A stretch of DNA of 64,000 nt, taken from the NCBI RefSeq assembly GCF_900091585.1, contig NZ_FMHT01000003.1:3277501-3341500 (forward strand), written 5' to 3'. Below, piece by piece: positions 15,616-54,662 of this stretch. This stretch comes from Micromonospora nigra. GTDB lineage: Bacteria > Actinomycetota > Actinomycetes > Mycobacteriales > Micromonosporaceae. The translations under genes and the position numbers were made by a program. Under the pieces are notes generated by a model. The model made no database searches. It was not told the DNA's origin and saw nothing but the letters and a program-made list of their open reading frames with translations. Each line of letters begins with the position of its first letter. Position 1 is the stretch's first letter.

Positions 15616-15734
15616 GATCCGGCAGGAAAGCGGATGAATCCCCGTCGAGTGGTCGTCGTCTCCCGCCCCCGCGCAGGAGTCGGCGGCCGCTCGGCGGGGA
15701 TCGCTGCGTGACCAGGAAGAGGGCCGCGCGGCGT

Positions 15735-15850
15735 GCGCTACCGTCTTACCGACCACGCCACAGCGAAGCCGGTGCGAAACCGGTGCTGTCCCGCAACTGT
15801 GATGCCCCTGCCGGGGACGAGCCAGGTCGCCTGCGGTGCGGTCGCGACCC
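15735..15850 (+). ncRNA. Cobalamin riboswitch aptamer
   Basis: The leader of the btu operon contains the conserved cobalamin aptamer elements in order: GAAGCCGGTGCGAAACCGG (15765-15783), the GCTGTCCCGCAACTGTGA core (15785-15802) and the B12 box GAGCCAGGTCGCCTGC (15819-15834). Adenosyl- or other cobalamin binding is expected to repress the downstream uptake genes. Outer boundaries are approximate because the P1 stem was judged by eye. Confidence 0.92.
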
Positions 15851-15890
15851 GCGCTCTCGAGGAAGGGCGCCTCGCGGACGGACGTACGCG

Positions 15891-28353: not shown

Positions 28354-29078
28354 CCGCCGACCTGTTCGAGTTCACCCTCGGCCTCGGCGACGACGCGTTG
28401 GTCGCCGCCCAGCGGCTGGCCGAGTGGACCACCCGGGCACCGGAGCTGGAGGAGGACGTCGCGCTGGCCAACATCGCCCTCGACCAGCTCGGCGCGGCAC
28501 GCCTGCTGCTGACGTACGCCGGTACGCTGGAGGGTGCCGGCCGGGACGAGGACGCGTTGGCGTTCCTGCGCGACGACCGGGAGTTCCGCAACTGCCTGCT
28601 GGTGGAGCTGCCCAACGGCGACTTCGCGGTGACCATGGCGAAGCTGCTGTTCCTGTCGGCCTACCAGCTGCCGCTCTACACCGCGCTGGCCGGCTGCGAC
28701 GACGAGCGGCTGGCCGCGATCGGGGCGAAGACGCGCAAGGAGTCGGCGTACCACCTGGATCACGCCTCGCGGTGGGTGACCCGGTTGGGCGACGGCACCG
28801 AGGAGTCACACCGGCGGATGCAGGCGGCCGTGGCCGAGGTGTGGCCGTACACCCACGAGCTGTTCGCGGCGGCCCCGGCGGCCCCGGTCGACCCGGCCAC
28901 GCTCCGCCCGCGGTTCGACGCGACGGTCGACGAGGTGCTGGCCGAGGCGACGCTGACCCGGCCGGCGACGACCTGGTCGCCGGCCGGCGGGCGGGACGGT
29001 GTGCACACCGAGCACCTGTCGTACCTGCTCACCGAGATGCAGGTGCTGCACCGTGCCCACCCGGGGGCGGCGTGGTGA
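28350..29078 (+). CDS. paaC: Phenylacetyl-CoA epoxidase structural subunit PaaC
   Basis: A 242-residue ferritin-fold partner of PaaA; in characterised complexes it stabilises PaaA but lacks the di-iron site. Segments LEEDVALANIALDQLGAARLLLTYAG, RDDREFRNCLLVELPNGDFA and KESAYHLDHASRWVTRLGDGT are typical. GTG start overlapping paaB. Its TGA stop forms part of the GTGA that begins the 57-bp repeat array before paaD. Confidence 0.96.
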   Translation: MTADLFEFTLGLGDDALVAAQRLAEWTTRAPELEEDVALANIALDQLGAARLLLTYAGTLEGAGRDEDALAFLRDDREFRNCLLVELPNGDFAVTMAKLLFLSAYQLPLYTALAGCDDERLAAIGAKTRKESAYHLDHASRWVTRLGDGTEESHRRMQAAVAEVWPYTHELFAAAPAAPVDPATLRPRFDATVDEVLAEATLTRPATTWSPAGGRDGVHTEHLSYLLTEMQVLHRAHPGAAW

Positions 29079-29245
29079 GCGCGAGGAGTGCAGCGCAGCG
29101 GAGCCCCGCAGTCGCGAGCGAGGGCGATGTGGTGAGCGCGAGGAGTGCAGCGCAGCGGAGCCCCGCAGTCGCGAGCGAAGGCGATGTGGTGAGCGCGAGG
29201 AGTGCAGCGCAGCGGAGCCCCGCAGTCGCGAGCAAAGGCGATGCG
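29075..29245 (+). repeat. Triple 57-bp tandem repeat between paaC and paaD
   Basis: Three near-identical 57-bp units (29075-29131, 29132-29188, 29189-29245). Each begins GTGAGCGCGAGGAGTGCAGC, contains CCCCGCAGTCGCGAGC and ends in a purine block (GAGGGCGATGTG, GAAGGCGATGTG, AAAGGCGATGCG). The unit is 19 codons, so the array stays open in the paaD frame and every unit starts with an in-frame GTG. The first GTGA is the overlap with the paaC stop. The array belongs to the same family as the single copies inside the nuo operon. Confidence 0.93.
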
Positions 29246-41343: not shown

Positions 41344-42458
41344 GCACCTTTACCGAACAGACCCGCGAGCGGGCCCGGGAGATCATCGCCCGGTACCCGG
41401 CCGACCGGTCCCGCTCGGCGCTGCTGCCGCTGCTGCACCTGGTGCAGGCCGAGGAGGGCTACGTCTCCCCGGCCGGGGTGGCGTTCTGCGCCGAGGTCCT
41501 CGGGCTGAACAAGGCCCAGGTCGGTGCGGTCGCCACCTTCTACACCATGTACAAGCGCCGGCCAACCGGTGACTACCTGGTCAGCGTGTGCACCAACACC
41601 ATGTGCAACGTGCTGGGCGGCCAGGAGGTCTACGACACCCTCGCCGAGCACCTCGGCGTCGGGCACGACGAGACCACCGCCGACGGCACGATCACCCTGG
41701 AGCACGCCGAGTGTCTGGCGGCCTGCGACTACGGGCCGGTGATGACCGTCAACTACGACTTCTTCGACGGCGTGGACCCGCAGACCGCGGTGGGTGTCGT
41801 CGAGGAGTTGCGCGCGGGCGGGCAGCCGACGTCGAGCCGGGGCGCCCGGCTCTGCACCCTGAAGCAGATGTCGGTGCAGTTGGCCGGCTTCGCCGACGAG
41901 CGGGAGGGTGCGGTCGCCGACGGCGTGCCGGGTGAGCCGACCCTGCGCGGCCTGCGGCTGGCCCAGGAGCACGGCATCTCGGTGCCGGGCTTCGACCCGA
42001 ACACTCCCATCCGCAGCAAGGCGGAGGCGGACGCGGCGGCGGAGCAGGCCAAGGCCGCCGCACCGGCCGCCAGGGCCGCCGCCCCGGCTGCGGGCAAGGC
42101 CGGGGTCGGCGAGTCGGCCCCCGCCGCCGCGGCCACCGGCACCACCGCTCCCGACGTTGCCGGACCCGACCGGAAGTCGCCCGAGGTGCGGGCGGCCGAG
42201 ACCCGCCAGCCGGACGCGCAGACCCCGGTGCCGGACGCCCCGGGCACCAAGGTGCCGGTCGACGGCGCTCCGGCGGAGCCGGCCGACGCTCGGGCGGCCG
42301 AAGCCGCCGGCGTGGCGGACAACCCGGTGGCCGGTGACGGCAAGCCCGCCGGCGACGACGCCGACGCGCAGGAGCGCAACCTCAGGGACGCGGAGGCGAG
42401 CGCGGGCAGCGAGCCCGCGAGCCCCGCAGCCGGGAGCGAAGGGGGAACCCGACAGTGA
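41340..42458 (+). CDS. nuoE: NADH-quinone oxidoreductase subunit E with long disordered tail
   Basis: A 372-residue 24-kDa-type subunit. Residues 1 to about 220 are the thioredoxin-like domain with the N1a 2Fe-2S ligands Cys84, Cys89, Cys125 and Cys129. From about residue 225 a low-complexity Ala/Pro/Glu/Lys tail of roughly 145 residues follows, nearly doubling the usual length. The last 20 residues are encoded by a copy of the dispersed repeat (42396-42445). GTG start and stop each overlap the neighbouring genes by 4 bp, so the tail is truly in frame with the operon. Confidence 0.95.
42396..42445 (+). repeat. Dispersed junction repeat, copy inside the nuoE 3' end
   Basis: GCGAGCGCGGGCAGCGAGCC begins a diverged copy with the CCCGCAGCCGGGAGCGAAGG block near its end. 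It is read as the last codons of nuoE ([17 protein letters not shown]) and its purine-rich end lies about 9 bp before the nuoF GTG. Confidence 0.7.
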
Positions 42459-43771: not shown

Positions 43772-46272
43772 TGACCGATGTAGTCAAGGCCCCGGAAACC
43801 GTCACGCTGACCATCGACGGCGTCGAGGTCACCGCCCCGAAGGGGGCGCTGCTGATCCGGGTCGCCGAGCAGTTGGGGACCGAGATCCCCCGGTTCTGCG
43901 ACCACCCGCTGCTGGCCCCGGCGGGTGCCTGCCGGCAGTGCCTGGTCGAGGTGGAGGGCCAGCGCAAGCCGGTCGCCTCCTGCACCCAGACCGTCTCGGA
44001 CGGCATGGTGGTCCGCACCCAGCTCACCTCCCCGGTCGCCAAGAAGGCGCAGGAGGGGGTCATGGAGCTGCTGCTGATGAACCACCCGCTCGACTGCCCG
44101 ATGTGTGACAAGGGCGGCGAGTGCCCGCTGCAGAACCAGGCGATGTCCACCGGCCGCACGGACTCGCGGTTCCACGAGCACAAGCGGGAGTACCCGAAGC
44201 CGCTGCCGATCAGCACCCAGGTGCTGCTCGACCGCGAGCGCTGCGTGCTCTGCCAGCGCTGCACCCGGTTCTCCGACGAGATCGCCGGCGACAAGTTCAT
44301 CGACCTGATGGGCCGGTCGTCCGCCGAGGAGATCAACATCTACCGGGACGAGGAGTACGGCGGGCAAGCGGACGAGGGCGATGACGGCGATGTGCCGTTC
44401 AACTCGTACTTCTCCGGCAACACGGTGCAGATCTGCCCGGTCGGCGCGCTGACCGGCGCCCAGTACCGGTTCCGGGCCCGCCCGTTCGACCTGGTCTCCA
44501 CCCCGAGCGTCTGCGAGCACTGCTCGGCCGGTTGCGCCCAGCGCACCGACTGGCGGCGCGGCAAGGTGCTGCGCCGGCTGGCCGGCGACGACCCGCAGGT
44601 CAACGAGGAGTGGAACTGCGACAAGGGGCGGTGGGGCTTCCAGTACGCCCGCGCCTTCGACCGGCTCACCACCCCGCTCGTGCGCGACCGGCACACCGGC
44701 GAACTGCGCGAGGTGTCCTGGAGCGAGGCGCTGAGCGCCGCCGCCGAGGGGCTGCGCGCCGCCCGGGACGCCGGCCAGGGCACCGCCGTGCTCACCGGCG
44801 GTCGGCTGACCGTCGAGGACGCCTACGCGTACGCGAAGTTCGCCCGCGTGGCCCTGCACACCAACGACATCGACTTCCGGGCCCGGCCGGTGTCCCGTGA
44901 GGAGACCGACTTCCTCGCCAGCACGGTCGCCGGAGCCACCGACGTCACCTACGCCGACGTGGAGAACGCGCCGGCGGTGGTGCTGGTCGGCCTGGAGCCG
45001 GAGGAGGAGTGCCCCATCCTCTTCCTGCGGCTGCGCAAGGCGTACCTGAAGAAGAAGCTGACGGTGTACGCGATCGCGCCGTTCGCCACCCGCGGCCTGG
45101 AGAAGCTCGGGGCCAAGCTGGCCCGGGTGGTGCCGGGCGAGGAGGCCAGCGTGCTCGCCGAGCACGCCACGGTCGCCGAGGCGCTGGGCACCCCGGGCGC
45201 GATCCTGATCGTGGGCGAGCGGCTGGCCACCGTGCCGGGCGGGCTCTCCGCCGCCGTGGCGGTGGCCCGGCGTACCGGAGCGAAGCTGGCCTGGGTGCCG
45301 CGGCGTGCGGGTGACCGCGGTGCCGTCGACACCGGCTGCCTGCCCAACCTGCTCCCCGGCGGACGCCCGGTCACCGAGCCGGCCGCCCGAGCCGAGCTGG
45401 GCGAGGCGTGGGACATCCCGGCGGGGGTCATCCCCAGCCAGGCCGGCCGGGACACCGACGGCATCCTCGCCGCCGCCGTGAACGGTCAGCTCGGCGCGCT
45501 GGTGGTGGCCGGCGTCGACCCGGCCGACCTGGCCGACCCGCGCCTGGCGGAGCAGGCTTTGGACGCGGTGCCGTTCCTGGTGAGCCTGGAGCTGCGCAAC
45601 TCGGCGGTGGCCCGCCGGGCGGACGTGGTCCTCCCGGTCGCCCCGGTGGTCGAGAAGGCCGGCAGCTTCCTGGACTGGGAGGGCCGGCTGCGCACCTTCG
45701 AGGCGGTGCTGGACACCCCCGCGATGACCGACGGTCGGGTGCTCGACGCGCTGGCCGCCCAGCTCGACGTGCGGCTGGGCACGGGCGACGTGCTCAGCGT
45801 CCGGCGGGAGCTGGGCGGGCTGCCGGCGACCCGGGTGGCGCGTACCGCCGCGCCGTCGGTGGAACCGGGCACCGTGCCGCAGCCCGGTGCGGGTGCGGCC
45901 GTGCTCGCCACCTGGCACCAGCTGATCGACCTGGGCAGCCTCACCGACGGCGACGAGCACCTCGCCGGCACCGCCCGCCCGCCGGTGGTCCGGCTGGGCA
46001 AGGGCACGGCGGAGGCGCTCGGCGTGGCCGATGGCGAACCGGTGACGGTGGGCACCGACCGGGGGGCGCTGACCCTGCCGGTGGTGATCACCGAGATGCC
46101 GGACGGCGTCGTCTGGCTGCCGACCAACTCACCCGGCTCGACCGTCCGGCGCAGCCTCGGTGCGGCGTCCGGCTCGGTGGTACGGATCTCCGTGCCCGCC
46201 GCGACCGGGTCCGCCACCCCGGAAGCCGCCGGCCGGCCGGGCCCGCTCCTCAACTCCGGGGGTGCCCAGTGA
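43771..46272 (+). CDS. nuoG: NADH-quinone oxidoreductase subunit G
   Basis: An 833-residue 75-kDa-type subunit. The ferredoxin part binds 2Fe-2S through Cys43, Cys54, Cys57 and Cys71; His105, Cys109, Cys112 and Cys118 form the His-ligated cluster; [10 protein letters not shown] with CPVGAL forms the next; and CEHCSAGC with a later Cys forms the extra N7 cluster. The rest is a molybdopterin-oxidoreductase-like domain without cofactor. TGA stop lies in the GTGA that begins a dispersed repeat copy. Confidence 0.97.
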
Positions 46273-46295
46273 GCCCCGCTGTCGCGAACGAAAGG
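46269..46295 (+). repeat. Dispersed junction repeat, short copy between nuoG and nuoH
   Basis: GTGAGCCCCGCTGTCGCGAACGAAAGG: only the outer parts of the element remain. GTGA overlaps the nuoG stop and the GAACGAAAGG end supplies the Shine-Dalgarno for nuoH. Listed in two parts: GTGAGCCCCGC and TGTCGCGAACGAAAGG. Confidence 0.8.
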
Positions 46296-46303
46296 TGGGC
46301 CCA

Positions 46304-47650
46304 GTGCTGACCTACCTGGCCCAGGATCCGACGCTGGCCGACTTCGGCCGGGACCCCTGGTGGCTGGTCCTCGGAAAGATCCTCTTCGCCTTCGTCTTCG
46401 GTCTGCTCGCCACCCTGCTCGGCGTCTGGTTCGAGCGGCGGGTCGTGGGCTTCATGCAGGTGCGGCCCGGCCCCAACCAGGTCGGCCCGTTCGGTCTGCT
46501 GCAGACCCTCGCCGACGGCCTGAAGATGGCCTTCAAGGAAGACATCCTGCCGAAGTCGGCGGACAAGGTCGTCTACTTCTTCGCCCCGGCGATCTCGGTG
46601 ATCTGCGCGGTCACCGCGCTGTCGGTGATCCCGTTCGGCCCGATGGTGAGCATCTTCGGTCACTGGACGCCGCTCCAGGTCACCGACGTGCCGGTGGCGG
46701 TGCTGGTGGTGCTGGCCTGCTCGTCGATGGCGGTGTACGGCATCGTGCTGGCCGGCTGGGCGTCCGGCTCGACCTACCCGCTGCTCGGCGGGTTGCGCTC
46801 CACCGCCCAGCTCATCTCGTACGAGGTGGCGCTGGGGCTGTCCATCGTGGCGGTCTTCATGCTCTCCGGCACGATGTCGACCAGCGGGATCGTCGCCGCC
46901 CAGGGGGACGGCACCCGGCTCACCCTGTTCGGCGCGGACGTCCAGGGGCCCGGCTGGTATGCGCTGCTGCTCTTCCCGAGCTTCGTGATCTTCTTCATCT
47001 CCATCGTGGGTGAGACCAACCGGCCGCCGTTCGACCTGCCCGAGGCGGAGTCGGAGCTGGTCGCCGGCTTCATGACGGAGTACAGCTCGCTGAAGTTCGC
47101 GCTGATCATGCTCTCTGAGTACGTCGCGATGGTGACCATGTCGGCCTTCACCGTGACGCTGTTCCTCGGCGGCTGGCGGGCACCGTGGCCGATCACCTTC
47201 TGGGAGGGGGCGAACAGCGGCTGGTGGCCGATGCTCTGGTTCTTCGGCAAGGTCGTCCTGCTGGTCTTCGTCTTCGTCTGGCTGCGGGGCACGCTGCCCC
47301 GGCTGCGGTACGACCAGTTCATGCGGCTGGGCTGGAAGGTGCTGATCCCGGTCAACCTGGTCTGGATCGTCGTCCTGGCGGGCTTCCTGAAGACGCAGGG
47401 CTGGGAACGCGCCGACCGGCTGGTGGTCTACGGGATCATCGCCGGGGTGGTGCTGCTGGCGACGCTGTTCTGGCCGAGCCGGAAGCCCCAGCCGCAGGCG
47501 CCGCTCCAGGAGCAGGTCGACAACCGGCCGTCGGGCAGCTTCCCGCTGCCCCCGATGGACCTGCAGGTTCCACCGAGCCCGCGCACCAGGCGCGTGGTCG
47601 CCGAGCGGGAACCGGCCAACATCGCCGGCCCGGACTCCAGGGAGGTGTGA
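46304..47650 (+). CDS. nuoH: NADH-quinone oxidoreductase subunit H
   Basis: A 448-residue membrane subunit joining the two arms, about eight to nine helices. The amphipathic quinone-channel region [23 protein letters not shown] and the acidic loop [21 protein letters not shown] are conserved. The last 50 residues after the final helix are a Pro/Arg-rich soluble extension. GTG 46304 after AAAGG from the repeat; 1-bp gap to nuoI. Confidence 0.97.
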
Positions 47651-47651
47651 C

Positions 47652-48293
47652 GTGGGCGCGATCACCGGAACGTTCAAGGGCTTCGGTGTCACCTTCTCGC
47701 ACATGTTCAGGAAGGTCGTCACCACCGACTACCCGTTCAAGCCGCCGGTCTCGGCGCCGCGCTACCACGGGCGGCACATCCTCAACCGGCACCCGGACGG
47801 CCTGGAGAAGTGCATCGGCTGTGAGCTGTGCGCCTGGGCCTGCCCGGCCGACGCGATCTACGTCGAGGGTGGCGACAACACCGACGAGCAGCGGTTCTCG
47901 CCGGGCGAGCGGTACGCCAGCATCTACCAGATCAACTACGCCCGGTGCATCTTCTGCGGACTCTGCATCGAGGCGTGTCCGACCCGGTCGCTGACCATGA
48001 GCAACGAGTACGAGCTGGCCCGGGACAACCGGCAGGATCTGATCTTCACGAAGGAGCAGCTGCTCGCGCCGCTGCTGCCCGGCATGGAGCAGCCGCCGCA
48101 CCCGATGCGCCTGGGCGACAGCGAGAAGGACTACTACGTCGGCGCGCTCACCAACCCGGGCACGTCGGCCGGTGCGGAGACCTCCCCGATGGGTCCGGGC
48201 CGCTACCGGCTCGACGAGCACCCGGGTGTGGAGTTCCCCGGCGCCGAGCAGGCCGCCCAGCGGGCCGAGGCGGGCAAGGGAGAGACGGCATGA
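47652..48293 (+). CDS. nuoI: NADH-quinone oxidoreductase subunit I
   Basis: A 213-residue ferredoxin-like subunit with two 4Fe-4S clusters (N6a/N6b type): Cys54, Cys57, Cys60, Cys64 and Cys99, Cys102, Cys105, Cys109. The C-terminal 60 residues, rich in Gly/Pro/Glu, are an actinobacterial extension. GTG after AGGGAGGTG. Its stop overlaps nuoJ by 4 bp. Confidence 0.97.
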
Positions 48294-49060
48294 CCACGCA
48301 GACCGTGCTCGCCGCGACCGGCGCGGTGTCCGGCGGGGAGGCGGTGACCTTCTGGATCCTCGCCCCGCTGGCGTTGCTCGGGGCGATCGGGATGGTGATG
48401 GCCCGCAACGCCGTGCACTCGGCGCTCTGGCTGGTGCTGACCATGCTCAGCCTGGGCGTGTTCTACGTGCTCCAGGCCGGGCCGTTCATCGGCATGGTGC
48501 AGATCATCGTCTACACCGGCGCGATCATGATGCTCTTCCTGTTCGTGCTGATGCTGGTGGGCCGGGACGCCTCCGACTCGTTGATCGAGGTGCTCCGCGG
48601 GCAGCGGGTGGCCGCGATCGTGCTGGGTGCCGCCTTCGCGACGCTGCTCGGCAGCGGGGTGTACCGGGCCACGCAGGGCGGCACGGCGGTCGGCCTGGAG
48701 CAGGCCAACGCCGGGGGCAACGTGCAGAGCATCGCGCGGCTGCTGTACACCGACTACGTCTTCGCGTTCGAACTCACCGCGGCGCTGCTGATCACCGCCA
48801 CGATCGGTGGGATGGTGCTCGCCCACGTCGAACGGCGCAAGGAGGACAAGCGCGACCAGGTGGCCACCATGAAGGCCCGCTTCGCGCCCGGCAACTACCC
48901 CGGCCCGAAGCCCGGCCCCGGTGTCTTCGCCACCTCCTCGTCGGTGGCCACCCCGGCGCGCCTGCCCGACGGCCGACTGAGCGAGCAGAGCACCCCGGAC
49001 ATCCTCCCGGTGCGTGAGCTGAGCGCCGAGGAGACAACGCTGAAGGGGACTGACAAGTGA
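48290..49060 (+). CDS. nuoJ: NADH-quinone oxidoreductase subunit J
   Basis: A 256-residue membrane subunit with five helices in the first 170 residues, including [22 protein letters not shown] with the conserved pi-bulge segment. A charged, Pro-rich cytoplasmic tail of about 80 residues follows, longer than in enterobacteria. ATG overlaps nuoI; its TGA is part of the GTGA of the next repeat copy. Confidence 0.96.
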
Positions 49061-49104
49061 GCGCGAGGAGCGGGCCGGCGGGCCCTGTGGTCGCGGACGG
49101 AAGG
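49057..49104 (+). repeat. Dispersed junction repeat between nuoJ and nuoK
   Basis: A full-length single copy. It begins GTGAGCGCGAGGAGCGGGCC, with GTGA overlapping the nuoJ stop, and ends GTGGTCGCGGACGGAAGG, eleven bases before the nuoK ATG. The end block is the only Shine-Dalgarno-like sequence for nuoK. Confidence 0.85.
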
Positions 49105-49115
49105 CGGTTGCGCTG

Positions 49116-49433
49116 ATGGGCGACTTCTTCTCGGTCGAACCGAACTACTACCTGGTCCTCGCCGCGGTGCTGTTCACCATCGGCGCGGTCGGCGTGCTCG
49201 TCCGGCGCAACGCGATCGTGCTGTTCATGTGCATCGAGCTGATGCTCAACGCGGCCAACCTGACGCTGGTCACCTTCGCCCGGATCAACGGTGACCTGAA
49301 CGGCCAGATCATGGCGTTCTTCGTGATGGTGGTGGCGGCGGCCGAGGTCGTGATCGGGCTCGCCATCATCATGGCGATCTTCCGGACCCGACGCTCGGCG
49401 AGCGTCGACGACGCCAACCTGCTGAAGTACTAG
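49116..49433 (+). CDS. nuoK: NADH-quinone oxidoreductase subunit K
   Basis: A 105-residue, three-helix proton-channel subunit related to MrpC. Conserved glutamates lie in [14 protein letters not shown] and [16 protein letters not shown] 49116. Separated from nuoJ by 55 bp that consist mostly of the dispersed repeat; 10 bp to nuoL. Confidence 0.97.
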
Positions 49434-49443
49434 AGGGGCCCCG

Positions 49444-51399
49444 GTGGACGAGATTCTGACGTACGCCCAGGCGGAGCCGACGGGAACCGTCGCCTACGCG
49501 ACGGCGGACGGCCTGCTGAGCAGTGTCTGGCTGCTGGTGGCGATCCCGCTGCTCAGTGCGACGGTCCTGCTGCTGCTCGGCCGCCGGGCCGACCGCTGGG
49601 GCCACTGGCTCGGCGTGGCCGCCATCGGCGCCACCTTCCTGCTCGGCCTGACCTACTTCCTGGGCCTGCGCGGCCTGGAGAACAAGTCCGTCGAGCTGAG
49701 CCTGTGGGACTTCATCGCGGTCGGCGGTCTGCGGGTCGACTTCGGCCTGCTGTTCGACCCGCTGGCCGCGGTCTTCGTCCTGCTGATCACCGGGGTGGGT
49801 TTCCTGATCCACCTCTACGCGGTCGAGTACATGGCGCACGACGCGGGCCGACGGCGGTTCTTCGCCTACTTCAACCTGTTCGTCGCCGCCATGCTCCTGC
49901 TGGTGCTCGGCAACAACTACGTGATGCTCTACTTCGGCTGGGAGGGCGTCGGCCTGGCGTCGTACCTGCTGATCTCCTTCTGGTCCGACCGGCCCAGCGC
50001 CGCCACGGCCGGCAAGAAGGCGTTCCTGATGAACCGGGTCGGCGACGCCGGCCTGGCCATCGGCATCTTCATCATGTTCGCCACCCTCGGCACCACCCAG
50101 TACGACGAGGTCTTCAACGGTGTCGGCGCGCTGGCCGGGGGCACCGTGCTCGCGCTCGGCCTGCTGCTCCTGCTCGGCGCGTGCGGCAAGTCCGGCCAGT
50201 TCCCGCTCCAGGCGTGGCTTCCGGACGCGATGGAGGGCCCGACCCCCGTGTCGGCCCTCATCCACGCCGCGACGATGGTCACCGCCGGCGTCTACCTGAT
50301 CGCCCGGTCCAACCCGGTCTTCTCGGCGAACTCGACGCTCCAGCTCGTGGTCGTCAGCGTCGGCGCGCTGACCCTGCTGCTGGGCTGCGTCATCGGCGCC
50401 GCGAAGGACGACATCAAGCGGGTGCTGGCCTGGTCCACGGTCAGCCAGATCGGCTACATGTTCCTCGGCGTCGGGCTGGGCGGGGGCGCGTACGCCCTGG
50501 CCATCGTGCACCTGCTCGCGCACGGCTTCTTCAAGGCCAACATGTTCCTCGGCGCGGGCTCGGTCATGCACGGCATGAAGGACCAGGTGGACATCCGCCG
50601 CTTCGGCGGCCTGTCCAAGTACATGAAGATCACCTGGTTGACCTTCGGCGCGGGCTGGCTGGCCATCATCGGCATGTTCCCGTTCTCCGGCTACTTCTCC
50701 AAGGAGCCGATCATCGCGGCGGCCTTCGAGCGGGAGGGCTGGACCGCCTGGCTGTTCGGCGGGGCCGCGCTGCTCGGTGCCGGGCTGACCGCGTTCTACA
50801 TGACCCGGCTGTTCGTGCTGACCTTCCACGGCCCGAAGCGGTGGACGGAGGACGTGCACCCGCACGAGTCCCCGCTGCTGATGACGGTCCCGCTGATCCT
50901 GCTGGGGCTCGGCTCCGTGGGCGCGGGCTTCCTGCTGGCCACCTCCGTGCCGGACTGGCTCACCGCCACCGCCGGCCTGGGCGGCGAGGAGGAGGCACAC
51001 TCGGCGGTCCTGTCGCACACGGCGGTCACCATCCTCTCCCTGGGGATCACCGTGCTGGGGGCCGGGCTCGCCTGGTTCCTGTTCCGCAACGGCACGGCGA
51101 CCACGCCGCAGCCGGCCGGGGTGCTGGTCACCGCCGCCCGCCGGAACCTCTACACCGACACGGTCAACGAGGCGGTCTTCGAGAAGCCCGGCATCTTCCT
51201 CACCCGGGCGCTGGTCTACCTGGACAACCGGGGCATCGACGGGCTGGTCAACGGCCTCGCCGCAGCGGTCGGCGGCGGCTCGGGCCGGCTCCGGCGGATG
51301 CAGACCGGCTTCGTCCGGTCGTACGCGACCTCGATCCTGACCGGCGCGCTGCTGGTGGTGGCCGCCTTCCTGGCCGTGCAGGCGGGGTGGTTGGCGTGA
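49444..51399 (+). CDS. nuoL: NADH-quinone oxidoreductase subunit L
   Basis: A 651-residue antiporter-like proton-pumping subunit with about 16 helices. The FGWEGVGLASYLLISFW segment carries the key Glu, PLQAWLPDAMEGPTPVSALIHAATMV the half-channel residues and KRVLAWSTVSQIGYM a pumping Lys. The C-terminal part includes the long lateral amphipathic helix region. GTG start after GAGGGGCC. Confidence 0.97.
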   Translation: MDEILTYAQAEPTGTVAYATADGLLSSVWLLVAIPLLSATVLLLLGRRADRWGHWLGVAAIGATFLLGLTYFLGLRGLENKSVELSLWDFIAVGGLRVDFGLLFDPLAAVFVLLITGVGFLIHLYAVEYMAHDAGRRRFFAYFNLFVAAMLLLVLGNNYVMLYFGWEGVGLASYLLISFWSDRPSAATAGKKAFLMNRVGDAGLAIGIFIMFATLGTTQYDEVFNGVGALAGGTVLALGLLLLLGACGKSGQFPLQAWLPDAMEGPTPVSALIHAATMVTAGVYLIARSNPVFSANSTLQLVVVSVGALTLLLGCVIGAAKDDIKRVLAWSTVSQIGYMFLGVGLGGGAYALAIVHLLAHGFFKANMFLGAGSVMHGMKDQVDIRRFGGLSKYMKITWLTFGAGWLAIIGMFPFSGYFSKEPIIAAAFEREGWTAWLFGGAALLGAGLTAFYMTRLFVLTFHGPKRWTEDVHPHESPLLMTVPLILLGLGSVGAGFLLATSVPDWLTATAGLGGEEEAHSAVLSHTAVTILSLGITVLGAGLAWFLFRNGTATTPQPAGVLVTAARRNLYTDTVNEAVFEKPGIFLTRALVYLDNRGIDGLVNGLAAAVGGGSGRLRRMQTGFVRSYATSILTGALLVVAAFLAVQAGWLA

Positions 51400-51478
51400 T
51401 CGACCTCAGGGGGCTGACAGCCTCTCAGGCGGCCGTCGCCGGCGGACCGCACAGTGACGACGGAGGTAAGGCCGCATA

Positions 51479-53011
51479 ATGTCCGACTTCCCGTTCCTCT
51501 CGGTGCTCACCGTGGCGCCGCTGGTGGGTGCCCTGGTGGTCGCCCTCCTGCCGCGCAGCCGGCCGGTGCTGGCCAAGCAGGTGGCGCTCGGCTGGTCGTT
51601 GCTGGTGCTGGCGCTGTCGGTGGTCATGTGGATCACCTGGCAGGTCGGCGGCGACCGGTTCCAGTTCCGCGAGTCGTACCCGTGGATCCCGAACTGGGGC
51701 GTCAGCTTCACCCTCGCCGCCGACGGCATCGCACTCGTGATGCTGATGCTGATCGCGGTGCTGGTGCCGCTGGTGATCCTGGCGTCCTGGCACGACGCCG
51801 AGAGCTCCAGGCGGTCCGTGCCGGCCTACTTCGCGCTGCTGCTCGTCCTCGAGTGCACGATGATCGGCGTCTTCGCCGCCGCCGACGTCTTCCTGTTCTA
51901 CGTGTTCTTCGAGGTCATGCTCGTGCCGATGTACTTCCTCATCGGCAGCTACGGCGGCCACCAGCGGCAGTACGCGGCCGTGAAGTTCTTCCTCTACTCG
52001 CTGGTCGGCGGCCTGTTCATGCTGGCCGCCGTGATCGGCCTGTGGGTGGTCGGCGGGAAGACCTTCGACTGGGTGGCGCTGTCGGAGGTGGACATCTCCA
52101 CCGGGGCCGAGCGCTGGCTGTTCCTCGGCTTCTTCGTCGCCTTCGCGATCAAGGCACCGTTCTTCCCGTTCCACACCTGGCTGCCGGACGCCGGTGGTGC
52201 GGCTCCGGCCGGCGCGGCGGCGCTGCTCGTCGGCGTACTGGACAAGGTCGGCACCTTCGGCATCCTGCGTTACTGCCTGCCGCTGTTCCCCGACGCGGCG
52301 AAGTGGTTCGCCCCGTGGGCACTGGCCCTGGGCCTGATCGGCATCATCTACGCCGCGTTGCTGGCCGTCGGCCAGAACGACCTGAAGCGGCTGGTGTCGT
52401 ACACGTCGATCGCGCACTTCGGCTTCATCGGGGTCGGCATCTTCGCCTTCACCACGCAGGCCGGCACCGGCGCGGTGCTCTACATGGTCAACCACGGCCT
52501 CGCCACCGGGCTGCTCTTCCTGGTCGTGGGCATGCTGATCGCCCGCCGGGGTTCGGCGCTGATCAGTGACTTCGGGGGTGCGGGCAAGCTGGTGCCGGTG
52601 CTGGCCGGGGTGCTGTTCTTCGCCGGTCTGGCGTCGCTCGCGCTGCCGGGCACCGCGCCGTTCGTCTCCGAGTTCCTGGTGTTGATCGGCACGTTCACGG
52701 TGAACAAGCCGGTGGCGATCATCGCCACGCTCGGCATCATCCTGGCGGCGGCGTACGTGCTGTGGATGGTGCAGCGCACCACCCAGGGCACGCTCAACCC
52801 GGCGCTGACCGAGATCGACGGCATGAAGCGGGACCTCAACCTGCGCGAGAAGGTCGTCGTCGCCCCGCTGATCGCGCTGATCGTGGTGCTCGGCTTCTAC
52901 CCGAAGCCGGTCACCGACGTGATCAACCCCGCCGTCCAGGCGACCATGGAGGACGTCGGCAGGACCGACCCCGCTCCCGAGGTCGGCGGCGTCCAGGAGG
53001 CGAGCCGGTGA
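51479..53011 (+). CDS. nuoM: NADH-quinone oxidoreductase subunit M
   Basis: A 510-residue antiporter-like subunit with about 14 helices. Glu in YVFFEVMLVPMYFLIG, Lys in AIKAPFFPFHTWLPDA and DLKRLVSYTSIAHFGFIGVG are the pumping residues. ATG with GGAGGTAAGG before it. The 79-bp gap from nuoL holds no repeat copy. Its stop lies in the GTGA of the next repeat. Confidence 0.97.
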   Translation: MSDFPFLSVLTVAPLVGALVVALLPRSRPVLAKQVALGWSLLVLALSVVMWITWQVGGDRFQFRESYPWIPNWGVSFTLAADGIALVMLMLIAVLVPLVILASWHDAESSRRSVPAYFALLLVLECTMIGVFAAADVFLFYVFFEVMLVPMYFLIGSYGGHQRQYAAVKFFLYSLVGGLFMLAAVIGLWVVGGKTFDWVALSEVDISTGAERWLFLGFFVAFAIKAPFFPFHTWLPDAGGAAPAGAAALLVGVLDKVGTFGILRYCLPLFPDAAKWFAPWALALGLIGIIYAALLAVGQNDLKRLVSYTSIAHFGFIGVGIFAFTTQAGTGAVLYMVNHGLATGLLFLVVGMLIARRGSALISDFGGAGKLVPVLAGVLFFAGLASLALPGTAPFVSEFLVLIGTFTVNKPVAIIATLGIILAAAYVLWMVQRTTQGTLNPALTEIDGMKRDLNLREKVVVAPLIALIVVLGFYPKPVTDVINPAVQATMEDVGRTDPAPEVGGVQEASR

Positions 53012-53100
53012 CCGCGAGGAGCGGGCTGGCGAGCCCCGGCTGCCCGCGCGAGGAGCGAGTCCCGCGGTCGTGGGCACACCACGCAGTCGTGAACGAAAGG
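53008..53100 (+). repeat. Dispersed junction repeat, double copy between nuoM and nuoN
   Basis: A compound copy: GTGACCGCGAGGAGCGGGCT opens the first unit (GTGA overlapping the nuoM stop) and CGCGAGGAGCGAGTCCCGCG begins a second, rearranged one; the end GCAGTCGTGAACGAAAGG gives the Shine-Dalgarno for nuoN, eight bases before its GTG. Confidence 0.82.
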
Positions 53101-53108
53101 TTGGTCCA

Positions 53109-54662
53109 GTGACCGAGCTCCAACTGCCGTCGATCGCCTACGGGGCGCTCGCGCCCACCCTGATCATGCTGGGCGCCGCGGTGATCGGGGTGCTGGTCGA
53201 GGCGTTCGCGCCCCGGCGGCTGCGGCACCCGGTGCAGCTGACGTTGGCGCTGCTGGCGGTGCTCGCCGCGCTGACCATGGTGGTCCTGAACGCCGACGAG
53301 CGGCTGATCACCATGGGCGGGGCGATCGCCGTGGACGGGCCGACGCTGTTCCTCCAGGGCGCGATCCTGGTGCTCGCCGCGGTGGCGCTGCTGCTGATCG
53401 GCGAGCGCGCGGTCGAGCGCGGCGGGGCGTTCGTCGCCCAGGCCGCGGTCACCGCCGACTCGCCCGAGGACCGGCGGCAGGCCGAGGGGCAGAACGGCGC
53501 GACCGAGGTCTACCCGCTGACCACCTTCGCGATCGGCGGCATGCTGATCTTCGTGGCGGCGAACGACCTGCTCACCATGTTCATCGCGCTGGAGGTCTTC
53601 TCGCTGCCGCTGTACCTGCTCTGCGCGCTGGCCCGCCGCCGGCGACTGCTGAGCCAGGAGGCCGCGCTGAAGTACTTCATGCTCGGCGCGTACGCCTCGG
53701 CCTTCTTCCTGTTCGGGGTGGCCCTGATCTACGGCTTCACCGCCGGCCTGCCGAACCGCCCGGCCGGGGTGGACTTCGCCACCGTCAACGCCGCGGTGGC
53801 CGACTCCACGGCCAGCCAGGTGCTGCTGTTCGCCGGCATGGCCCTGATCGCCATCGGCCTGCTGTTCAAGGCGGCGGCGGCTCCGTTCCACGTCTGGACG
53901 CCCGACGTCTACCAGGGTGCCCCGACCCCCGTGACCAGCTTCATGGCCGCCTGCACCAAGGTCGCCGCGTTCGGCGCCCTCCTGCGGGTGTTCCACGTGG
54001 CCTTCGAGGGGGCCCGGTGGAACTTCACTCCCGTGCTCGGGGTGGTGGCGGTGCTGACCATGCTGGTCGGTGCGGTGCTCGCGGTCACCCAGACCGACAT
54101 CAAGCGACTGCTGGCGTACTCGTCGATCGCCAACGCCGGCTACCTGTTGGTGGGTGTGCTCGCCCCCGGGCGCGACGGCCTCTCCGGCACGATGTTCTAC
54201 CTGGTCGCGTACGGCTTCTCGGTGCTCGCCGCGTTCGCCGTGGTCACCCTGGTGCGCGACGCCGACGGCGAGGCCACCCACCTGTCCCGCTGGGCGGGTC
54301 TGGGCCGGCGGTCGCCGTTCTTCGCGGCGGTGTTCACCTTCATCCTGCTGGCCTTCGCCGGGATCCCGCTGACCAGCGGCTTCATGAGCAAGGTCGCGGT
54401 CTTCGGCCCGGCCATCGACGGCGGTCAGACGTGGCTGGTGATCGCAGGCGTGCTGACCAGCATGGTGCTGGCCTTCCCGTACCTGCGGGTCGTGGTGATG
54501 ATGTGGCTCTCCGAGCCGGGTGAGTCGACCCCCACCGTCACCGTGCCCGGCGGGCTGACGTCGGCGGCACTGGTGATCGGCGTGCTCGCCACCCTGGTCC
54601 TCGGCGTCGCCCCGGCGCCGCTGCTGGACCTGACGGCGGGGGCGGCGGAGTTCGTCCGCTAG
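53109..54662 (+). CDS. nuoN: NADH-quinone oxidoreductase subunit N
   Basis: A 517-residue antiporter-like subunit with about 14 helices, last gene of the operon. Glu in FIALEVFSLPLYLLCAL, Lys in FKAAAAPFHVWTPDVYQGAPTP and DIKRLLAYSSIANAGYLLVG are the conserved charged residues. GTG 53109 chosen since the preceding repeat provides GAACGAAAGG. Followed by a hairpin terminator. Confidence 0.97.
   Translation: MTELQLPSIAYGALAPTLIMLGAAVIGVLVEAFAPRRLRHPVQLTLALLAVLAALTMVVLNADERLITMGGAIAVDGPTLFLQGAILVLAAVALLLIGERAVERGGAFVAQAAVTADSPEDRRQAEGQNGATEVYPLTTFAIGGMLIFVAANDLLTMFIALEVFSLPLYLLCALARRRRLLSQEAALKYFMLGAYASAFFLFGVALIYGFTAGLPNRPAGVDFATVNAAVADSTASQVLLFAGMALIAIGLLFKAAAAPFHVWTPDVYQGAPTPVTSFMAACTKVAAFGALLRVFHVAFEGARWNFTPVLGVVAVLTMLVGAVLAVTQTDIKRLLAYSSIANAGYLLVGVLAPGRDGLSGTMFYLVAYGFSVLAAFAVVTLVRDADGEATHLSRWAGLGRRSPFFAAVFTFILLAFAGIPLTSGFMSKVAVFGPAIDGGQTWLVIAGVLTSMVLAFPYLRVVVMMWLSEPGESTPTVTVPGGLTSAALVIGVLATLVLGVAPAPLLDLTAGAAEFVR

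Follow-up and report, generated by a model that had tools for sequence, protein, structure and literature searches.

REP, BIME and REPIN elements are short dispersed repeats that lie between genes. The mycobacterial interspersed repetitive units (MIRUs), reportedly described by Supply et al. in 1997, have 'DTGA' as their target. A review describes MIRUs as inserting at start codons and carrying an inner open reading frame (ORF) coupled at −4, with a likely minimal impact on expression (PMC12548453), and in another paper a class I MIRU makes up a gene's entire 5′ UTR (PMC4128351). Here we analyze a repeat of comparable placement in a 64,000-nucleotide stretch of the Micromonospora nigra genome (the window; contig NZ_FMHT01000003.1, positions 3,277,501 to 3,341,500).

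The repeat is dispersed and often tandem, with a unit of mostly 54–65 bp and the core consensus GTGAGCGCGAGGAG...GAGCCCCGCAGTCGCGAACGAAGG. A model built from the sequences of 29 repeat units (R1) yields eight matches in the window, every one on the + strand with E ≤ 0.0012; four of these copies were in its training set. A sequence-only reading of the window had placed the repeat at five sites, and related copies are present at all five, those in the nuo gaps at 46269-46294 (nuoG–nuoH), 49057-49103 (nuoJ–nuoK) and 53008-53099 (nuoM–nuoN). The parts as delimited here are:

29075..29245, + strand: triple array of three tandem 57-bp units in the paaC–paaD gap (unit starts 29075, 29132 and 29189)
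42396..42442, + strand: copy at the 3′ end of nuoE, inside the gene as an in-frame C-terminal tail
46269..46303, + strand: shortened copy between nuoG and nuoH; 13-codon frame with a −4 overlap to nuoG and −7 to nuoH
49057..49117, + strand: copy between nuoJ and nuoK; 19-codon frame with a −4 overlap to nuoJ and TGATG (−1) to nuoK
53008..53112, + strand: long copy between nuoM and nuoN; 34-codon frame with a −4 overlap at either side

The same reading had the element begin with GTGA in the four gaps, and in all four the TGA is indeed the stop codon of the upstream gene. The common end block that it described before the next start is present, though looser than claimed (GTCGCGGACGGAAGG at nuoJ–nuoK, GCCGGGAGCGAAGG in nuoE). 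Within the window alone, the end block GTCGCGARCRAARG occurs eight times at up to two mismatches against 4.8 expected, which is not significant (13 of 100 shuffles reach eight), and the start block occurs seven times against 2.2 expected, which is significant (one of 100 shuffles has as many). A feature that this reading had missed is the open frame formed by the element, which overlaps the genes at both sides, its GTG on the upstream stop and its TGA on the downstream start. The paaC–paaD array forms a 216-codon frame that runs from the GTG at 29075, on the paaC stop, continuously in frame with paaD, and nuoE with its repeat tail retains the GTGA overlap with nuoF. R1 picks up the nuoM–nuoN copy as two pieces, which we read as one copy nested in another; nested-looking copies of this kind, about 57 bp longer and with the frame intact, also occur at nuoD–nuoE in three relatives (L037, L049 and L050) and at nuoC–nuoD in two (L046 and L050).

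We regard it as probable that the repeat is a small element that moves, or once moved, and for which the stop/start overlap within an operon serves as a safe site, translational coupling surviving the insertion by way of the small ORF. Ribosomes finishing the upstream gene would restart on the small ORF and then again on the downstream gene, so that coupling would outlive the insertion, which would therefore be close to neutral; the peptide itself is probably dispensable. Both the translation of the small ORF and the movement of the element are inferred here from comparison of sequences.

The M. nigra genome contains 60 R1 matches at E ≤ 1, of which the 46 at E < 0.02 group into 27 sites, many of them tandem, such that site counts for this genome leave out the 14 weaker matches; units in the arrays that were read are spaced 54–60 bases apart. 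The 14-mer GTGAGCGCGAGGAG has 17 exact matches in the 6.36-Mb genome and its reversed control none. The 19-mer GTGAGCGCGAGGAGTGAGC occurs exactly in 193 of 354 genomes of the family, comprising 159 of 160 from the genus and 34 of 194 from other genera, and its reversed control in none of the 354. In a search with matches per genome capped near 50, R1 matches all 73 same-genus genomes (M. nigra included) and, weakly, one of 48 others. A NuoJ scan supplied the nuo relatives (the best 80 of 565 related stretches), and in the 70 nuo loci searched with R1 (L101–L110 left out), 88 of 90 matches lie on the strand of the operon. Few fall outside Micromonospora, Verrucosispora, Salinispora and Plantactinospora; the outliers are Phytohabitans (L064), Paractinoplanes (L087) and Catellatospora (L089), together with a weak antisense match in Actinoplanes (L080). 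A literature search that covered part of long result lists, chiefly outside the subscription journals, found no such repeat in Micromonospora, and the text matches to four 11–14-mers of the element concern, judged by title, unrelated subjects. At one M. nigra site (L023, near 4152704–4152790), which lies outside any assignable junction, there are two copies of the core whose complementary ends are longer (CTCGGGA...TCCCGAG).

Placement at stop/start overlaps holds genome-wide. In M. nigra, 20 of the 27 sites have the sense orientation and lie at an NTGA overlap of stop and start: at 18 the repeat begins at the stop codon of a long upstream frame, from which a chain of overlapping frames leads to the next gene, and two further sites of that chain type (L018 and L139) were assigned by hand and script. 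Three others (L010, L021, which is nuoE, and L022) are in-frame C-terminal tails that keep the overlap with the next gene, two (L009 and L020) are leader-like, and one (L011) starts 6 bases past a TAG. Gene starts in this analysis were placed by homology. An automatic test for an upstream stop followed by a chain, whose classes hinge on length and G+C cut-offs, was applied to 47 of 49 arrays in a genome of the same genus (G022) and 21 of 25 in one from another genus of the family (G382). It assigned 31/47 and 13/21 arrays, respectively, to the junction class; together, these 44 of 68 compare with 14 of 327 random GTGA of the same loci (Fisher p about 1e-28), and no array of the 68 falls in the antisense junction class. 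The other 24 fail the strict class as three C-terminal tails, three with a stop that does not overlap, eight leader-like (an uninformative class, as 178 of the 327 random GTGA also land there), six with a left stop and no chain, and four in no class; the last two groups are plain misses. The first refuting condition set by the sequence-only reading, a lack of enrichment of copies elsewhere at stop/start junctions, does not hold, and its insertion part is not refuted. One array of G382 (G382:C1:5033326-5033739) comprises seven units and, by in-frame fusion, makes up the N-terminal portion of a 357-codon frame.

The relatives provide the corresponding empty sites. Depending on the species, seven nuo junctions hold either a filled gap or an overlap, the latter mostly of −4, −1 or −7. 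A clean pair at nuoC–nuoD (L034 and L038) differs by 59 extra bases with GTGA at either side, and sister species (L045 and L043) form a clean filled/empty pair at nuoG–nuoH. The paaC–paaD loci examined, 20 of 31 and from the genus, comprise 10 with an overlap, seven with 31–167 bases and three with 10–22 bases, and none of the ten gaps is 0 mod 3. Another gene pair (that of L008) overlaps by 4 in 12 of 25 loci and by 1 in one, has gaps of 0–2 in three, and carries units in nine: one unit in five of these, two in two and three in two. Placement at GTGA overlaps, as first proposed, is supported, more exactly at NTGA, and the same gene pairs mostly overlap in relatives without the element. Two loci (L004 and L015) hinted at a longer target duplication, an idea that we abandoned, as NTGA alone is seen in most filled/empty pairs. 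At the level of sequence, these comparisons establish the pattern of the inserts, which are sense-oriented, are placed at NTGA and have at least TGA at either side, with a single NTGA overlap in relatives; they likewise establish that presence varies between close species and that copies multiply in tandem.

Whether copies spread by transposition is a separate matter. Recombination and gene conversion between junctions, with expansion via slippage, could disperse the repeat without it, and we consider such a route unlikely, though a serious contender. It would accommodate the tandem arrays of near-identical units and the right end GGCGRCTCTG-ATGA common to the nuoD–nuoE and nuoF–nuoG copies. 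A tree of 33 nuo regions from 33 species, scored at 210 junctions with 64 of them filled, requires at fewest 45 changes of presence across the seven junctions, counted without telling gain from loss, and so leaves room for the same route. Against it are the clean filled/empty pairs seen at unlinked loci, which have NTGA at either side, and the different length types at the one junction nuoM–nuoN. This alternative concerns the spread of copies and can coexist with coupling as proposed in the insertion model, so that our confidences in the two overlap.

In the window and 32 relatives, filled nuo gaps other than nuoL–nuoM, left out because R1 does not match them, are 1 mod 3 in length in 59 cases, 2 mod 3 in three and 0 mod 3 in two. 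A strict chain of −4 or −1 overlaps alone extends to the following gene at 62 of these 64 junctions, via one small ORF in 58, two in two and a fusion in two. Deletion of one base in silico breaks the chain in 54/64 and lets it pass in 10/64, and deletion of two turns 55/64 into fusions. A laxer criterion that accepts starts inside the gene passes 61/64 real junctions, but also 31/64 with one base deleted and 56/64 with two. The two strict misses are nuoG–nuoH of the window, whose −7 overlap lies outside the criterion, and nuoJ–nuoK of L051, where the start is set too far upstream and the array ends in ATGA. Because the species are related, these counts are not independent; as distinct pairs of junction and length, 39 of 41 give the full chain. 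The nuoL–nuoM gap of the window (51397-51479) has a 27-codon frame joined via GTGA and TAATG overlaps, and such a frame is present at all 32 gapped nuoL–nuoM junctions, whose gaps measure 61–100 bases and are 1 mod 3.

Unit lengths are held to the same rule. Among 93 distinct units (97 matches), 64 are 2 mod 3, 24 are 0 mod 3 and five are 1 mod 3; 77 of the 97 end at a junction, 12 continue into the next unit, three fuse to a gene and five misfit, four of the last being matches that begin within a longer unit. All 68 matches of 2-mod-3 units end at a junction, and those of 0 mod 3 (24) end at a TGATG junction in nine cases, enter the next unit in 12 and fuse to a gene in three. By their total length, the inserts are open frames that tie the upstream stop to the small ORF, and this in turn to the downstream start, by overlaps or, less often, are fused in frame to a neighbor. 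Such conservation of the frame would, we infer, keep translational coupling.

The sequence-only reading had proposed the opposite: genes uncoupled by the element, the downstream one gaining a Shine-Dalgarno start of its own. A strong Shine-Dalgarno does come with the element: the median anti-Shine-Dalgarno duplex energy is −9.4 (n = 62) at downstream starts behind it, slightly above the strength at empty downstream starts (−8.6, n = 87), with −8.8 (n = 62) at small-ORF starts and −2.3 (n = 1240) at random positions. The original Shine-Dalgarno is now that of the small ORF, and the downstream gene is served by the one that the element brings. This half of the proposal holds. Uncoupling, however, would not maintain a small frame with its overlaps, yet both are maintained (62/64 strict chains, lengths held to frame), which counts against it and makes it improbable.

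A useful micropeptide as the product of the small ORF and the object of selection is more doubtful again, although the frames are open everywhere and the ORF of a second family described below is constant, at 27 codons in most loci. In Micromonospora, subfamily cores whose lengths differ by other than a multiple of three diverge in reading frame past the hinge and have compensating tails that restore the stop. Cores of class 53 carry a 6-base tail in 23/28 units, an 8-base tail follows class 51 in 17/25 and class 57 in 6/9, and class 48 (31 units) has mixed tails (8 bases in 13, 6 in nine and 9 in seven). As the subfamilies read the same DNA in different frames, it is the unbroken frame that is kept and not the peptide. 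The ready change of presence among close species and the fusion of certain copies to neighboring genes also speak against a selected product. That the repeat works as a structured RNA or a REP-like hairpin, in attenuation or processing, can hardly be credited and was rejected, for although pairing of the ends CGCGA / TCGCG is feasible in most units, at 93.8% of cells, folding is the same as in dinucleotide shuffles (z −0.06, −0.09, 0.00 and +1.01), covariation is not above that of shuffled partners, and the sole Rfam match in the window at gathering scores is a cobalamin riboswitch elsewhere (RF00174, 35.6 bits, 15714-15852).

A second family occupies the same kind of site. Phytohabitans maris has at nuoC–nuoD (L064:1992-2075) an 80-bp repeat with about 50 matches in its genome. 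It resembles the Micromonospora repeat in its NTGA at both ends, −4 overlaps, 27-codon ORF and tandem copies (spacing 80), but differs in sequence and length, in the dominance of ATGA over GTGA and in its constant length. Of 25 distinct loci (from 30 fetched, L300–L329), 16 combine a chain with an upstream stop at the left edge, four have the chain only and five fail. The 26 bases at its start occur, with one mismatch allowed, in 182 of the 354 family genomes (reversed control, 0). By eye, bases 1 and 23 of this 26-mer seem linked (ATGA...AATC, GTGA...AACC), with exceptions. Other nuo gaps in the Micromonosporaceae hold further open frames of unlike sequence (for example, nuoE–nuoF of L062 and nuoB–nuoC of L077). 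The second family and these other inserts support, without proving, a wider reading that we advance tentatively: stop/start overlaps may be a general landing niche in actinobacterial operons, where unrelated families (those of Micromonospora and Phytohabitans, and the MIRUs) would converge on a single rule of 3n+2 bases at NTGA, an open frame and a Shine-Dalgarno, movement being aimed at the overlap and the operon scarcely affected.

What had been a mycobacterial curiosity extends to other genera, with a sharp and testable rule, that the frame is kept and the peptide is not. The nuo operon offers many natural filled/empty pairs for measuring translational coupling, and annotators of these genomes should be warned that certain 'genes' of 19–40 codons, as well as certain N- or C-terminal extensions, are repeat units.

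Like REP, BIME and REPIN elements, the Micromonospora repeat is short, dispersed and intergenic; unlike them, its unit has a single orientation and an open frame and lacks a palindrome or fold signal. The closer parallel is to MIRUs. A MIRU motif matches 16 of 298 genomes of the order, 15 of them in one genus, presumably Mycobacterium, and the same overlap chain is present at 13 of 20 motif loci fetched (19 places, as two overlap); three MIRU-motif strings gave no text match in the literature searched. Against a hand-written consensus of the repeat found by that motif, three element types score no better than shuffles (294, 61 and 340 of 500 shuffles score at least as high), and identity as a MIRU by sequence was rejected. 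R1, in turn, weakly matches just one of the 48 non-genus genomes, an order sample that includes the genus with the MIRU motif. The two nevertheless share a short unit, dispersed and tandem, between operon genes; an orientation with the flanking genes (88/90 sense in nuo loci, antisense 0/68); a small ORF overlapping both neighbors, as in the account of the MIRU inner ORF (PMC12548453); and, in the leader copy L009, a resemblance to the class I MIRU as 5′ UTR (PMC4128351). The Micromonospora repeat, found in another genus and unrelated by sequence, is a new family of this known kind and would work in the manner of a MIRU.
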